From NCBI GenBank assembly GCA_903887485.1, contig CAISPV010000030.1:1-41275 (forward strand): a DNA stretch of 41,275 nt, read 5' to 3'. The number at the start of each line of letters is the position of its first letter. The first letter of the stretch is position 1. A model generated the notes under the pieces. That model ran no database searches. It worked only from the letters and a program-made list of their open reading frames with translations, and was not told where the DNA came from. This stretch comes from an uncultured Desulfobulbaceae bacterium (GTDB lineage Bacteria; Desulfobacterota; Desulfobulbia; Desulfobulbales; Desulfocapsaceae). The translations under genes were made by a program, and so were the position numbers. Shown piece by piece: positions 15,128-39,572 of this stretch.

Positions 15128-15202
15128 TGGTGACCCCAAGGGGAATCGAACCCCTCTTTACGGCGTGAGAGGCCGCTGTCCTAACCGATAGACGATGGGG
15201 CC
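15128..15202 (-). tRNA. tRNA-Glu (CTC anticodon)
   Basis: On the minus strand the sequence folds as a complete tRNA. The acceptor GGCCCCA pairs with TGGGGTC, the D-arm holds GGTTAGGA, the anticodon loop is CTCTCAC with anticodon CTC, and the T-arm holds GGTTCGATTCC. CCA is encoded at 15130-15128. It would read GAG. Confidence 0.97.
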
Positions 15203-30293: not shown

Positions 30294-32309
30294 TCAGCAT
30301 AATGCCAAATCAATGACCTCGCTGATATCATTGATGGTAACGATCTTCATATCTTCCAGAATATCTTCCGGAATTTCTTTAAGATCTGCTGTGTTTAACA
30401 GGGGCAGAATGACGGTTTTCACCCCTGCCCGACGGGCGGCAAGAATTTTGTCGCGTATCCCGCCGACCGGCAGCACCCGGCCGCTTAAAGTCAGTTCACC
30501 GGTCAAGGCGATATCTTTTCCCACCGGCCTTTTTGTCAACAGTGACAGCAGGGCCATGGCAATGGTAAGGCCTGCGGAAGGCCCATCCTTGGGGACCGCG
30601 CCGGCTGGAACATGGATATGAATGTCATGGCCGTTGAAAAAATCGTCGTCAATATGGAATAATGCGGCGTTGCTGCGAATATAACTCAATGCCGCCTGGG
30701 CAGACTCCTTCATTACCTCCCCCAGTGAGCCGGTGAGGATGAGTGTCTCTTTCCCTTTCATGATCGTTGCCTCGATGAAAAGGATCTGCCCTCCCGCCTC
30801 GGTCAATGCCAGGCCGGTGGCAACGCCGATCCTCTCGGTATCACCTGCAAGTTCAAAGAAATATCGGCGCGGACCAAGATATTTTTCAACCAGCTCTTCG
30901 GTAATCTCTATGGTTTTTTTCTCTTCCCCGTGGAGCACGATCTCTCTTGCCAGCTTTCGACAAACAGCGGCAATCTGCCGTTGAATATTCCTCAGCCCTG
31001 CTTCCCGCGTATATTCACGAATTATCTTTTGTACCGCTTCCGGCGTGAATACCAGTGATTGCCCGGACAGACCTGTCTCCTCAATTTGTCGCGGGATCAG
31101 ATAGTCGAAGGCGATCCTCTCCTTTTCCTCCTCCGTATAACCGGAGAGATGCAGAAGCTCCAGCCGGTCAAGAAGTGGCGCGGGGATAGGGTCAATTGTA
31201 TTGGCAGTGGCAATGAACATGACCCGTGACAGATCAAAGGGCAGGTCCAGGTAATTATCGATAAAGTGGGTGTTCTGAGTATGGTCGAGCACCTCGAGCA
31301 GAGCGGATGCCGGATCCCCCTTGAAATCCTGGCCGATTTTATCGATTTCATCAAACATAATAACAGGATTACGGGATCCGGCGCGGCGAATTTCCTGGAT
31401 AATCCGGCCGGGAAGGGCGCCAATATAGCTTCGTCGATGGCCGCGAATTTCTGCCTCATCTTTCATCCCTGCCAGGGAAATGCGAATGAATTTCCGGCCA
31501 AGGCATCTGGCAATGGATTTCTGCAGAGATGTTTTACCTGTTCCCGGAGGGCCGACAAAACAGAGAATTGGTCCTTTGGTGTCGAGCTGTTTTTTCTTTT
31601 TTGCCAAGGCCTGTTTGCTTGTTTCACGGAGTTCATCAAGCTGTAACGGCTTGGCCAGAAAATGGAAAGAGCCCTTTTGCATGGCCTCAACAGCGGTCGG
31701 GGTGGTGGCATATCCGGTAACAATGATAACTTCGGTGCTGGGATCCAGGGCCTTGGCTTTTTCCAGTACCTCCATCCCCCCGGCCCCTTTCATCTTCAAA
31801 TCCGTCACCACGAGATCAAATCGCTTTTTTTCCAAAAGGGCCAGCGCTTCATCGCCTCCGGCAACGCTTGAAACATTATAGCCCTCCCGTGACAGGACAT
31901 GTTCCAGGTTGCGGCGTGCAGTTTCATCATCATCGGCAAGCAGAACATTGTGGCGGCAGGATAATTTCAGGATACGGACGGCCAGGTATTCCAGGATACG
32001 TTCTTTTATATCCTGTAATCCATAATGATCTTCATCGAGTATCTTCTGGGCGCGGTCGATATCAAGATTATCCTCGGTAAAGGTATTCCACGGCAGGCTG
32101 GTAAGATATTCGATATAGTTTGTGCCGATGGTGTACTCGGTTGCGGAGGTGTTGGTCTTCGTAAGTTTGTCAACTTCCCTGAGTACCGCTTTTCTGACCA
32201 GAGGCGGCATGTCGACGCGCAGTACCGTTTCGCGCAGTTTGTCTATATCAGAGGAGTCTTCGTATTCCTGCTCTTGTTCGGGCTGCTGCCATTTTGAAAA
32301 TATTCCCAT
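30294..32309 (-). CDS. Lon-type protease with an inserted response-regulator receiver domain
   Basis: A 671-residue protein. Residues 21-118 are the Lon helical segment ([35 protein letters not shown]). A full CheY-like receiver follows at about 119-235, with the acidic pocket (ADDDE), the phosphate-accepting Asp170 in VVTDLKM, Thr198 and Lys220 (LAKPL). Then comes the AAA+ module: Walker A GPPGTGKT (253-260), Walker [10 protein letters not shown], sensor ATANT. Last is the protease domain with Ser578 (KDGPSAG) and Lys621. The usual N-terminal Lon substrate domain is missing. ATP-driven proteolysis switched by phosphorylation is the natural inference. The gene faces away from the microprotein pair at 32735. 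Confidence 0.95.
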
Positions 32310-32673: not shown

Positions 32674-32734
32674 TTAATAAAAGACAAAGGGAGTTAACGG
32701 TTTGAAATAAAAACATTATTAAGGAGAGATGAAA

Positions 32735-32899
32735 ATGAAAACGAACACGAAAAAGACGTATTTCGATACACTGATGATGGCAATCACTTTTGCTGAGGCT
32801 GGTGAATATGAAACAGCGAAGGGCATACTGGAGCAGACCAATCAGCAGCGGAAGCAGCCGGAAACAAGAGTGGAACAACGACCGGCCTTAGAGCTTTAA
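32735..32899 (+). CDS. Microprotein of the MMAITFAEAGE pair, first copy
   Basis: A 54-residue protein starting MKTNTKKTYFDTLMM. The core LMMAITFAEAGEYETAKGIL is nearly the same as in the next gene, whose product it matches along its length. The core reads as a helix-turn-helix hairpin like half of a TPR unit; the tail is Gln/Arg-rich. AAGGAG lies eight bases before ATG 32735; the earlier ATG at 32729 is too close. It is the first gene after the sigma-54 promoter. Function is unknown; two copies and strict core conservation argue that it is a real gene. Confidence 0.75.
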   Translation: MKTNTKKTYFDTLMMAITFAEAGEYETAKGILEQTNQQRKQPETRVEQRPALEL

Positions 32900-32959: not shown

Positions 32960-33127
32960 ATGTCGAACGAAAAAACACATCTGAGTAAGTGGGATAAGCT
33001 GATGATGGCAATCACCTTTGCTGAGGCCGGTGAGCCTGAAACGGCCAGAGATATTCTTGAAAAGACCAACAAAAAGCAAAAACGGCCTGAAAATCAGGGC
33101 GAGAGTCGACCTGATTTGCGAGTTTGA
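32960..33127 (+). CDS. Microprotein of the MMAITFAEAGE pair, second copy
   Basis: A 55-residue paralog starting MSNEKTHLSKWDKLMM. It shares MMAITFAEAGE, ETA, ILE and TN with the first copy at the same positions, while the ends differ and DNA differences fall mostly at codon third positions in the core; this pattern shows selection on the protein. A CGGAGG site lies eight bases upstream. It is 60 bp after the first copy and is followed by a hairpin terminator, so the two probably form one sigma-54-driven transcript. Confidence 0.75.
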   Translation: MSNEKTHLSKWDKLMMAITFAEAGEPETARDILEKTNKKQKRPENQGESRPDLRV

Positions 33128-33805: not shown

Positions 33806-34093
33806 ATGAGTAATACCGACAATGATAAAAAATTTCGTGAGATGGCGGACGCTTTTATCGCCGAAGCCAATAAACTGAGTAAAAATGAGGACCTGGGTAT
33901 GGTCAGTGCGTCATTTTTGTATGCTGCGGCGCGATTTAATATATTTCTTGTTGCGGCAAGTTCGGGTTCGGCAGATGAATTTGCGTCAAAAAAAGAAAAT
34001 TCATTAAACGCCCTTATGGCGGAATTCAAAAAAATGCTTGAAGATCATTTCGAGAATTACAAAGAGAATTTTAAAAAAAACCTAGGGAGATAA
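33806..34093 (+). CDS. DUF3144 family protein
   Basis: A 95-residue soluble protein. The family pattern is clear: FREMADAFIAEANKLSKNED, then VSASFLYAAARFNIFLVAAS and a charged helical tail ending EFKKMLEDHFENYKENF. The family has no known function. A CAGGAGAAA site precedes the ATG. It is one of the few intact genes in an AT-rich island-like area; an 8-bp inverted repeat (ATCTGACA/TGTCAGAT at 34114-34153) follows. Confidence 0.85.
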   Translation: MSNTDNDKKFREMADAFIAEANKLSKNEDLGMVSASFLYAAARFNIFLVAASSGSADEFASKKENSLNALMAEFKKMLEDHFENYKENFKKNLGR

Positions 34094-34504: not shown

Positions 34505-34840
34505 TCATTCTGCATCGTCCTTCTCTTCATGATGGCTGGGTATATGCAACTTGTTCATGAGATCTGCAAAAGGGGTGTGGGTGGCCGTTGGTTTCTTTTC
34601 CGTAGCTGAATTTTGAGTGGGTAGCCATTCGGCGTCCAGAGAGCGGGAGTGTTCGTTGTCATGGCTGTAGATACACAACAGTTCCCAGTTGCTGCCGTCG
34701 GGCGGATTGTTCCTGTAATTATGATCTTTGTGATGAACTGTCAGCTCTCGCAGTTTTTTTCCGGAAAAATCACGGCCGCATTTTCCACAGACCCAGGGGA
34801 GGATCTTCAGCGCTTGATCTCGGTACTCTGTTTTTTTCAT
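34505..34840 (-). CDS. YajD-type HNH nuclease, one zinc Cys replaced
   Basis: A 111-residue HNH protein of the YajD group. The first zinc knuckle is VCGKCGRDF; the HNH core is LTVHHKDHNYRNNPPDGSNW; then ELLCIYSHDNEH. In relatives the last part is usually C-x-x-C-H, so the second Cys of the pair is Ser here, changed by one base (AGC for TGC). This may weaken zinc binding. The tail beyond residue 75 is charged and not conserved. It is alone on the minus strand. The nuclease role is inferred from the family. Confidence 0.85.
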   Translation of the reverse strand: MKKTEYRDQALKILPWVCGKCGRDFSGKKLRELTVHHKDHNYRNNPPDGSNWELLCIYSHDNEHSRSLDAEWLPTQNSATEKKPTATHTPFADLMNKLHIPSHHEEKDDAE

Positions 34841-37245: not shown

Positions 37246-37258
37246 ATTCTATTGGTGC
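37204..37258 (-). repeat. Direct repeat, copy B (tRNA-Leu 3' end and terminator)
   Basis: Matches 33156-33208 with a few changes. It covers the last bases of tRNA-Leu (ACCA) and the hairpin behind it. Confidence 0.65.
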
Positions 37259-37340
37259 CTAGAGCGGGAGTCGGACCCGCACGGGCGCAAGGCCCACGAG
37301 ATTTTAAGTCTCGGGTGTCTACCAGTTCCACCATCCAGGC
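37253..37340 (-). tRNA. tRNA-Leu (TAA anticodon)
   Basis: An 88-base tRNA with a long variable arm, as for leucine. The acceptor GCCTGGA pairs with TCTAGGC, the D-arm holds AACTGGTAGACA, the anticodon loop is CTTAAAA with anticodon TAA, the variable arm TGGGCCTTGCGCCCG, and the T-arm GGGTCCGACTCCC. CCA is encoded. It would read UUA. Confidence 0.97.
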
Positions 37341-37745: not shown

Positions 37746-39572
37746 TTATGCCTCCGGCTGTTCCGATGGATGAAAATGATGGCGGATCTCCCGCGCCAGT
37801 TCCGGGCCGATTCCAGGCACCCTGGTCAGTATTTCCTCTGAGGCCTGTTTGATCTGGGTCAGGCTGCCGAGGGTCTTGAGCAGCATCTGTTTCTTCTTGG
37901 TACCGATGCCGCTGATGGCATCCAGCTCTGAGGCCAGGGTGGATTTATTGCGCAGTTTGCGGTGAAAGCTCACTCCGTAGCGATGCGATTCGTCCCGGAT
38001 GCGCATGAGATAGAGCAGAACCGGATTGTGGGGTGGCAGGATGATGGGATTTTTGCGGCCCGGTTTATAGAGTTTTTCCCCTTCTTCCTCTTTTTCCTTG
38101 GCGATGCCGAGCCAATCCAGCTCCTGGATATCTCCAGCGCCTGTCTCCCGGGCCACGCGCAGGGCTATCCCTAACTGGCCGCGGCCGCCATCGACCATCA
38201 GCAGATCAGGCAGGTCGTTTTCTTCCAGGCCTCGTTTTAACCGGCGTTCCAGTACCTCGGCCATCATCGCGTAATCATCGGGGCCATCAATGGTTCGGAT
38301 CTTGTAGTGCCGGAACTTATGGGGGGCCGCCTCACCCCGCTCAAAACAGACCAGGGACCCGACCGCATGCTGGCCGGATGTATTGGAGATATCCAGGCAT
38401 TCAATGGTGTCAGGACTATGATGCAGGTGCAGGCTTTTGACCATGGCGTTTGCGAGTGTCTGCCAGGACTGTTCTTTGTGGTCGCGCTCGGCAAAAAGCT
38501 GCTGGGCGTTGGCATTGGCCATGGCGATGAGCTGCATCCGATCACCGCGTTGCGGGACCTGGAGCTGGACGGTCTCGCCCCGCAGGTCGCTCAGTCGTTC
38601 GCTGAGGAGTTCTTTGTCCTCGGGTTCCAGAGGTAAGAGAATGTCTTGTGGCAGATTGTCGCCCTGATCGTAATACTGGTTCAAAACCTGGGACAGTATA
38701 TTTGCGTCATCCCCGATGGGGTCAGCGAGAAAAAAGGTGCGGCTGCCGCTGATCGTGCCGTTTCTGACCAAGAGGATGGCAAGGGCCAGGGAGGCATCTT
38801 TTCTGGCCAGGCCAAAGATGTCCTGATCCCGGGAATGGGTGGCCACGATCACCTGTTTTTCCAGGGTGCGGGACAGGGCCTGAATCTGGTCGCGGATGAT
38901 GGCAGCTCGCTCAAACTCAAGGTCGCGCGCGGCCAGTGCCATCTGCTGGCCCATGGCGGTAATCAGGTCCCGGTTATGCCCTTCGAGGACCATGATGACC
39001 CTGGCCACCATCTCTTGGTACCCTGTTCGGTCGGTCAGACCCATGCAGGGGGCCAGACAGTTGTGCATCTGGCCGTTGAGACAGGGCCGTGTCCGAGCCT
39101 GGAGCTGAGCGCCCTTGCATCTGCGCAGGGGAAAGAGGGAGGCGAGCAGTCTGAGGGTTGCCCACATGGCCGAAGGCGAGGAATAGGGGCCGAAATAGCG
39201 GGCGCCGTCTTTTTTTCTACGTCTGGTCATCAGTACCCGCGGCCATTCCTCCTGGATCGTGACCTTGAGCAGGGGGTAATTCTTGTCATCACGAAGGATG
39301 ATATTGTAGCGGGGGCGATGTTTTTTGATCAGCGAGGCCTCAAGGATGAGGGCCTCTTTTTCGGTACGGGTGAGCAGGGTATCCACCTTGTGGACATGGG
39401 AGAGCATGACCGCCGTCTTGTCCTGACCCGCTTGGGCAATCCGGGCGTAAGAGGCCAGCCGCTTGCGCAGATCCTTGGCCTTGCCGACATAGAGGACGCC
39501 GGATTTTTTATCGAGCATCAGGTAAACCCCTGGAGAATGGGGGGTAGCGGCGAGAAGATCAGGGGGAAACAT
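37746..39572 (-). CDS. uvrC: Excinuclease ABC subunit C
   Basis: A full-length 608-residue UvrC, which makes both cuts around DNA damage with UvrA and UvrB. The GIY-YIG domain is at the start (HSPGVYLMLDKKSGVLYVGK, then KDLRKRL). A Cys-rich stretch follows (RRCKG, RPCLNGQMHNCLAPC), as in many UvrC with an iron-sulfur site. The UVR motif is DLEFERAAIIRDQI, the RNase-H-like nuclease has IECLDISNTSG and LMVDGGRGQLG, and the end carries two helix-hairpin-helix motifs (ISGIGTKKKQMLL, VPGIGPELAREI). A Bfd-like gene follows directly. Confidence 0.97.
   Translation of the reverse strand: MFPPDLLAATPHSPGVYLMLDKKSGVLYVGKAKDLRKRLASYARIAQAGQDKTAVMLSHVHKVDTLLTRTEKEALILEASLIKKHRPRYNIILRDDKNYPLLKVTIQEEWPRVLMTRRRKKDGARYFGPYSSPSAMWATLRLLASLFPLRRCKGAQLQARTRPCLNGQMHNCLAPCMGLTDRTGYQEMVARVIMVLEGHNRDLITAMGQQMALAARDLEFERAAIIRDQIQALSRTLEKQVIVATHSRDQDIFGLARKDASLALAILLVRNGTISGSRTFFLADPIGDDANILSQVLNQYYDQGDNLPQDILLPLEPEDKELLSERLSDLRGETVQLQVPQRGDRMQLIAMANANAQQLFAERDHKEQSWQTLANAMVKSLHLHHSPDTIECLDISNTSGQHAVGSLVCFERGEAAPHKFRHYKIRTIDGPDDYAMMAEVLERRLKRGLEENDLPDLLMVDGGRGQLGIALRVARETGAGDIQELDWLGIAKEKEEEGEKLYKPGRKNPIILPPHNPVLLYLMRIRDESHRYGVSFHRKLRNKSTLASELDAISGIGTKKKQMLLKTLGSLTQIKQASEEILTRVPGIGPELAREIRHHFHPSEQPEA

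Follow-up and report, generated by a model that had tools for sequence, protein, structure and literature searches.

A gene of an uncultured Desulfobulbaceae bacterium encodes a LonA-type protease, hereafter REC-Lon, in which a complete response-regulator receiver lies between the pre-core helix and Walker A, and from which the LON domain is absent. This architecture, confirmed here for the window (the whole stretch of 41,275 nucleotides that was analysed), recurs across the window's phylum and the phylum sampled around a Nitrospirota record. It probably marks an old LonA subfamily with a receiver inside its motor, in which one histidine kinase drives both the protease and an NtrC-type regulator. 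In bacteria, regulated proteolysis is generally considered to depend mainly on adaptors and on the availability of substrates. If our reading is true, a Lon with its own receiver, a sister receiver on a transcription factor and one kinase for both would join transcription and degradation in a single signal.

Domain architecture of REC-Lon

The REC-Lon gene occupies positions 30294..32309 on the minus strand, stop included, and encodes 671 amino acids; all parts of it listed below are on that strand. Starting from the N terminus, a tail of residues 1–19 (32253..32309), with pLDDT below 50 for residues 1–14 in the predicted structure, leads into the Lon linker helices and the first AAA+ helix (residues 20–117, 31959..32252), assigned by alignment to 3m6a and modelled as helices 12–31, 36–50, 57–70, 84–94 and 99–117. 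The inserted receiver spans residues 119–241 (31587..31955; Pfam Response_reg 122–230, E = 2.2e-27) and carries D126, D127, D170, T198 and K220. The codon of Asp170, the predicted phospho-acceptor, lies at 31800..31802, and the residue is an aspartate in 66 of 66 REC-Lons. The AAA+ core (residues 249–384, 31158..31565; Pfam AAA, E = 2.7e-24) has the Walker A lysine K259, the Walker B pair D320/E321 and R382, which we take to be the arginine finger. It is followed by the Lon lid (Pfam, residues 410–465, 30915..31082) and the Lon_C protease domain (Pfam, residues 469–670, 30300..30905; E = 1.3e-84), which holds the Ser578–Lys621 dyad. The original prediction of a receiver with Asp170, Thr198 and Lys220 within a Lon open reading frame is thus borne out, as is its claim that the ATPase and Ser–Lys residues (K259, D320/E321, R382, S578 and K621) are intact.

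The protein combines features of a response regulator and of a LonA: it has the REC fold, acidic pair, phospho-Asp, Thr/Ser and Lys of response regulators, and the Walker A and B motifs and Ser–Lys dyad of LonA, and it scores 746.9 bits against TIGR00763 (endopeptidase La, NCBIfam; cut-off 608.05). Among the best 25 of 29 Pfam families, LON_substr_bdg was not found, nor were a sigma-54 interaction domain or an HTH. Searched with PF02190, the complete genome gave matches at three places, all on other contigs and none at the REC-Lon locus; three ordinary Lons with a LON domain are encoded elsewhere in this genome. The N-terminal substrate domain, missing according to the original prediction, is absent only as regards the LON domain proper (PF02190): the linker is kept, since residues 20–116 align with solved Lon structures (3m6a, the Lon of B. 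subtilis, and 7p6u) over the linker and the first AAA+ helix.

The AlphaFold2 model of REC-Lon, built with an alignment of 68 rows, has a pLDDT of 89.5 and a pTM of 0.85. In it, helix 99–117 is followed by the first receiver strand (121–125), strands and helices alternate through the receiver, and a single helix, 224–244, stops just short of strand 248–252, which runs into Walker A. Compared with LonA chains by Foldseek, the model reaches a TM score of 0.91 relative to the target (3m6a, rmsd 3.1).

Insertion point and conservation

At the insertion point, most ordinary Lons have next to nothing. Named records supplied 85 ordinary Lon-like ORFs, and in 75 of them the gap between the linker and AAA+ matches could be measured (the other 10 gave none). 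It ranges from −6 to 20 residues and is −3 to 5 residues in 67 of the 75, in agreement with the prediction that the receiver sits between the pre-core helix and Walker A, where Lon normally has a short gap. A motif-based ruler gives the same picture: measured from HYGL to GPPGxGKT, the pattern matched 43 ordinary ORFs from an input of 88, and 39 of the 43 have a span of 40; every one of the 66 REC-Lons has 166 or 167. The flanks of the insert are of fixed length: in 66/66, Leu98 of HYGL and Asp126 are 28 residues apart, and the receiver Lys220 and the Walker A Lys259 are 39 apart. Inside the receiver, the D126–D170 spacing is 44 in 63 REC-Lons and 45 in 3.

Nine residues, D126, D170, K220, K259, D320, E321, R382, S578 and K621, are invariant in the 66 proteins, among them relatives from several families that share as little as about 50% identity. 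Position 127 carries an aspartate in 64 proteins and a glutamate in the other 2; at position 198, 59 have threonine and 7 serine. We considered chance or a frameshift artefact as the origin of the window's layout and ruled both out, because the arrangement recurs in the genomes of relatives (14 of 38, own included).

Distribution and phylogeny

The REC-Lon set comprises 66 loci from 65 genomes, because L064 and L225 are the same protein of the same genome. The recurrence among the 38 genomes of relatives is of complete REC-Lons. Across the class, matches were found in 92 of 257 genomes; in 88 they span from the linker to near the end of the protease, and in 4 genomes they are partial, those of G119 and G054 starting only at residue 227 or 261. 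In the phylum, 48 of 395 sampled genomes, from 19 family codes, have a REC-Lon. Desulfocurvus belongs to this phylum, which is accordingly Desulfobacterota, and 40 of 120 genomes from the order of L064, a Desulfocurvus, have complete REC-Lons. Of 198 genomes sampled in the phylum to which L099 belongs (its record title reads Thermodesulfovibrionia/Nitrospirota), 24 have one; in the phylum of the genome of L133, which is too small to be Pseudomonadota and where there is no known member to serve as a positive, the count was 0 of 58. Carriers with names include Desulfobacter vibrioformis DSM 8776 (L063), the Desulfocurvus MAG (L064) and an uncultured delta MAG (L065).

In a tree of the Lon core (176 rows, no receiver columns), a branch with support 99 separates all 66 REC-Lons from 14 REC-less Lons, 19 paralogues and 77 Lons of named records; the tree was made with FastTree, which is no careful search, and 8 of the 85 named-record ORFs, having too little core, were left out. 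The simplest reading would be a single insertion event, with the receiver retained afterwards. Polyphyly had been suspected from the REC-less Lons L209–L221 and L302 and was rejected, all 14 lying outside the clade. These are ordinary Lons whose cores are 62–67% identical to that of the window's REC-Lon, yet they stand apart from its clade. In one genome, G046, a second and shorter REC-Lon-like ORF of 491 amino acids (L173:17238-18710) lies about 7 kb from the complete one.

Histidine kinase and NtrC-type regulator partners

A histidine kinase and an NtrC-type regulator are encoded as a pair within 7 kb of REC-Lon at 49 of 66 loci (48 of 65 genomes); the reference sequences came from L174, itself among the 49 linked loci. 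With the same thresholds, the pair was found at 0 of 39 control loci, which are ordinary Lon loci of at least 15 kb each from mixed phyla. At L174, Pfam describes a HAMP–HisKA–HATPase kinase of about 490 residues and a regulator composed of REC, a sigma-54 domain and HTH_8. On the stretch fetched, 17 of the 66 loci, the window's included, gave no pair; 3 of these 17 have a regulator above 300 bits without a kinase that passes the threshold.

The receivers of the protease and of the regulator resemble each other. In a tree of receivers, those of the 66 REC-Lons, the 49 linked regulators and the C77 regulator described below group together with 3 of 40 other receiver rows from the window's own genome, with support 93. 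The REC-Lon label needs 2 changes on this tree, which has few columns and many open forks; one origin of the label is possible. The alpha1 helix is the kinase-specificity helix of receivers. Over this docking helix (residues 129–142), REC-Lon and the regulator of the same locus are identical at a mean fraction of 0.54 (lowest pair 0.07), against a mean of 0.20 between REC-Lon and the 40 own-genome rows, which were taken from the top of the listing (39 distinct), with two C77-regulator rows set aside; the best-matching unrelated comparison reaches 0.57, which is above the linked-pair average. Asn134 is conserved in 65 of 66 REC-Lons and 48 of 49 linked regulators. The alpha1 likeness of the two receivers is due in part to common descent.

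In the window's genome, a kinase–regulator pair lies on another contig, C77, and is not linked to the REC-Lon gene. Its regulator is the genome's top receiver match, and its receiver is the closest to the inserted one among the own-genome receivers tested (alpha1 0.57, 50% overall). Around the pair are a Usp-like protein, a small membrane protein, two TauE/SafE-type proteins and a Usp, names that rest on similarity to Pfam-scanned relatives and on reading. At L178, in another genome, relatives of the C77 regulator (67%), kinase (54%), membrane protein (55%), one TauE (66%) and Usp (61%) are encoded near REC-Lon. The simplest reading is that these genes make up a three-component module, which would be split in the window's organism.

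FAEAGE proteins and the surrounding locus

Upstream of the REC-Lon gene, a 74% direct repeat falls in two divergent mini-protein ORFs, candidate companions of 56 amino acids (32729..32899, plus strand) and 55 amino acids (32960..33127, plus strand), which share the motif MMAITFAEAGExETAxxIL. By regular expression, the FAEAGE motif occurs within 8 kb of REC-Lon at 30 of 66 loci, or 27 without the doubtful L186, L192 and L065, and at 1 of 39 control loci, where the match looks spurious. Its carriers are mini-proteins, Usp-like proteins, a small membrane protein and single receivers; the motif itself gave no Pfam family above cut-off, with TPR and, for one relative, DUF4807 below it. A single-sequence model of a mini-protein (pLDDT 78.6) has helices 10–22 and 26–37. 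The mini-proteins of many relatives end in RPxLRV-like tails. The window's genome has eight FAEAGE matches, of which six are listed, two each at the REC-Lon locus, the C77 locus and contig C6. One open frame on C6 (G000:C6:31560-32024, 156 amino acids) has a receiver match and FAEAGE near its end, and similar receiver–FAEAGE proteins occur at L191 and L294.

The 28-residue FAEAGE hairpin might be a recognition tag for REC-Lon, such that on a kinase signal the protease would bind or degrade tagged proteins or use the mini-proteins as adaptors; we regard this as unlikely. The strict version, a motif private to REC-Lon, was rejected, as FAEAGE occurs in 40 of 165 class genomes that have no REC-Lon match. 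Among genomes with one, the motif is present in 19 of 19 with the window-type REC-Lon and in 2 of 73 with the other type, a split made after the identities had been seen and in which G050, G054 and G119 of the 19 have only partial matches. Against any REC-Lon across the class, the odds ratio is 0.92. Given this class-wide distribution, FAEAGE appears to be part of a wider stress module, not a private companion.

A sigma-54 promoter upstream of REC-Lon was rejected as a candidate feature, its pattern occurring at 1 of 66 loci against 1.1 in shuffles. An Rfam search of the window returned two tRNAs, at 15131-15202 and 37256-37340 (−), and nothing else above gathering scores. The upstream stretch is otherwise gene-poor and holds a DUF3144 protein (33806-34093, plus strand; Pfam 2.6e-24); an HNH endonuclease domain protein (34508-34840) and UvrC (37746-39572) are both encoded on the minus strand.

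The DVU3303 system of Desulfovibrio vulgaris

The original prediction implied that the arrangement was new, a claim overtaken by the literature: Rajeev et al. 2011 (PMC3333781) already note a three-component system of Desulfovibrio vulgaris in which the response regulator DVU3303 contains a Lon protease, and suggest a possible phosphorylation requirement for the protease. In their account, UspA-type and membrane proteins are among the targets of the system's regulator, and orthologues of the regulator are given for some Desulfovibrio, Thermodesulfovibrio, Thioalkalivibrio and Dechloromonas, mostly with a Lon-type one adjoining (PMC3333781); the regulon is repeated in PMC4641369. A 2023 fitness study groups DVU3303 with the kinase and regulator as DVU3303–DVU3305, and finds all three detrimental in 6.25 mM chlorate (disruption was beneficial), with every pairwise cofitness above 0.9 (PMC10102598). 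This shared fitness fits a protease acting in the direction of the regulator; polar insertions could give the same pattern if DVU3303 comes first in the operon, an order taken from the numbering. DVU3303 itself presumably has the layout of the window's REC-Lon, given the complete REC-Lons in the Desulfocurvus order. Among the matches listed in the open-licence literature, we found no other paper on a REC-Lon-like protein, nor one on its insertion point, origin or biochemistry. The present analysis adds the exact layout, the clade, its range, the split module and the two mini-proteins beside the gene.

Proposed mechanism and alternative explanations

In the mechanism we propose, the histidine kinase would phosphorylate Asp170 of REC-Lon. 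A shift of the beta5–alpha5 side of the receiver would then pass through the long last helix, 224–244, to the strand before Walker A, and would reach the first AAA+ helix too, thereby switching ATPase or nucleotide handling, ring assembly or substrate access. The same kinase would also phosphorylate the NtrC-type regulator, and one stress signal would therefore set both synthesis and degradation, the synthesis arm being sigma-54 genes that likely include those for Usp-like proteins and TauE/SafE-type transporters. Gating, including its route via the last helix, is inferred from the anatomy of the protein; phosphotransfer, the sharing of the kinase, the regulon in this organism and the substrates are likewise put forward as predictions. 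A phosphorylation-gated protease would fit the conserved receiver chemistry, the near-fixed spacing, the single clade, the linked kinase and the sister receiver. As for the sign of gating, activation by phosphorylation seems slightly the likelier.

The same anatomy bears on a different role for the receiver, as a docking platform that takes the place of the LON domain and whose recruited substrates would be the kinase, the regulator or other partners, so that phosphorylation would alter binding and not the motor. The absence of the LON domain, the position of the receiver ahead of the AAA+ core and the conservation of its kinase-facing residues would all suit a platform, but the lengths on both sides of the insert are fixed and a long helix leads to the strand before Walker A, which suggests mechanical coupling over a tethered platform; docking is a possible reading, though not the one we favour. 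Equally tentative is the idea that the protease works while unphosphorylated, for instance to clear the stress regulon once the signal ends, and is shut down by phosphorylation. In favour of this, ordinary Lon cores are active without a switch. The chlorate data point the other way: disruptions of the D. vulgaris protease, kinase and regulator each raise fitness with cofitness above 0.9, whereas a protease that opposes the regulator would be expected to go in the other direction unless the insertions are polar (PMC10102598).

It is most improbable that the receiver is a non-signalling relic and the protein merely a fourth Lon paralogue. The window copy does lie apart from the kinase–regulator pair, in a genome with three ordinary Lons; against this, the acidic pair (D or E at 127), Asp170, Thr/Ser198 and Lys220 are retained by all 66 REC-Lons, even by those from several families with about 50% identity. 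A phosphorylation-gated Lon that shares its kinase with an NtrC-type regulator stays our preferred reading.

Comparison with known systems

Among the closest known systems is that of DVU3303, which likewise combines a Lon-containing response regulator, a histidine kinase, an NtrC-type regulator and UspA-type and membrane targets (PMC3333781); the window's gene differs in lying apart from its kinase–regulator pair, which is on contig C77. With LonA (MEROPS S16, TIGR00763), REC-Lon shares the linker, AAA+ module, lid and Ser–Lys protease, and a fold with TM up to 0.91; it differs by the missing LON substrate-binding domain and by the receiver, about 120 residues long, that sits within its AAA+ module. 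The inserted receiver is of the kind found in NtrC-type sigma-54 activators (its best solved relatives by sequence are NtrC1 and DctD) and, as in them, sits immediately ahead of an AAA+ strand. NtrC types carry their receiver before the entire AAA+ domain, whereas in REC-Lon it splits the AAA+ module, and neither a sigma-54 domain nor an HTH is among the best 25 Pfam families. Control of Lon by phosphorylation is reportedly also found in Xanthomonas, where the switch, by the title of the work (PMC5784255), is on Lon itself. Phosphorylation also steers AAA+ proteolysis through RssB and CpdR, receiver adaptors that deliver substrates to ClpXP; their receiver resides in a separate adaptor, whereas that of REC-Lon is built into the protease chain.
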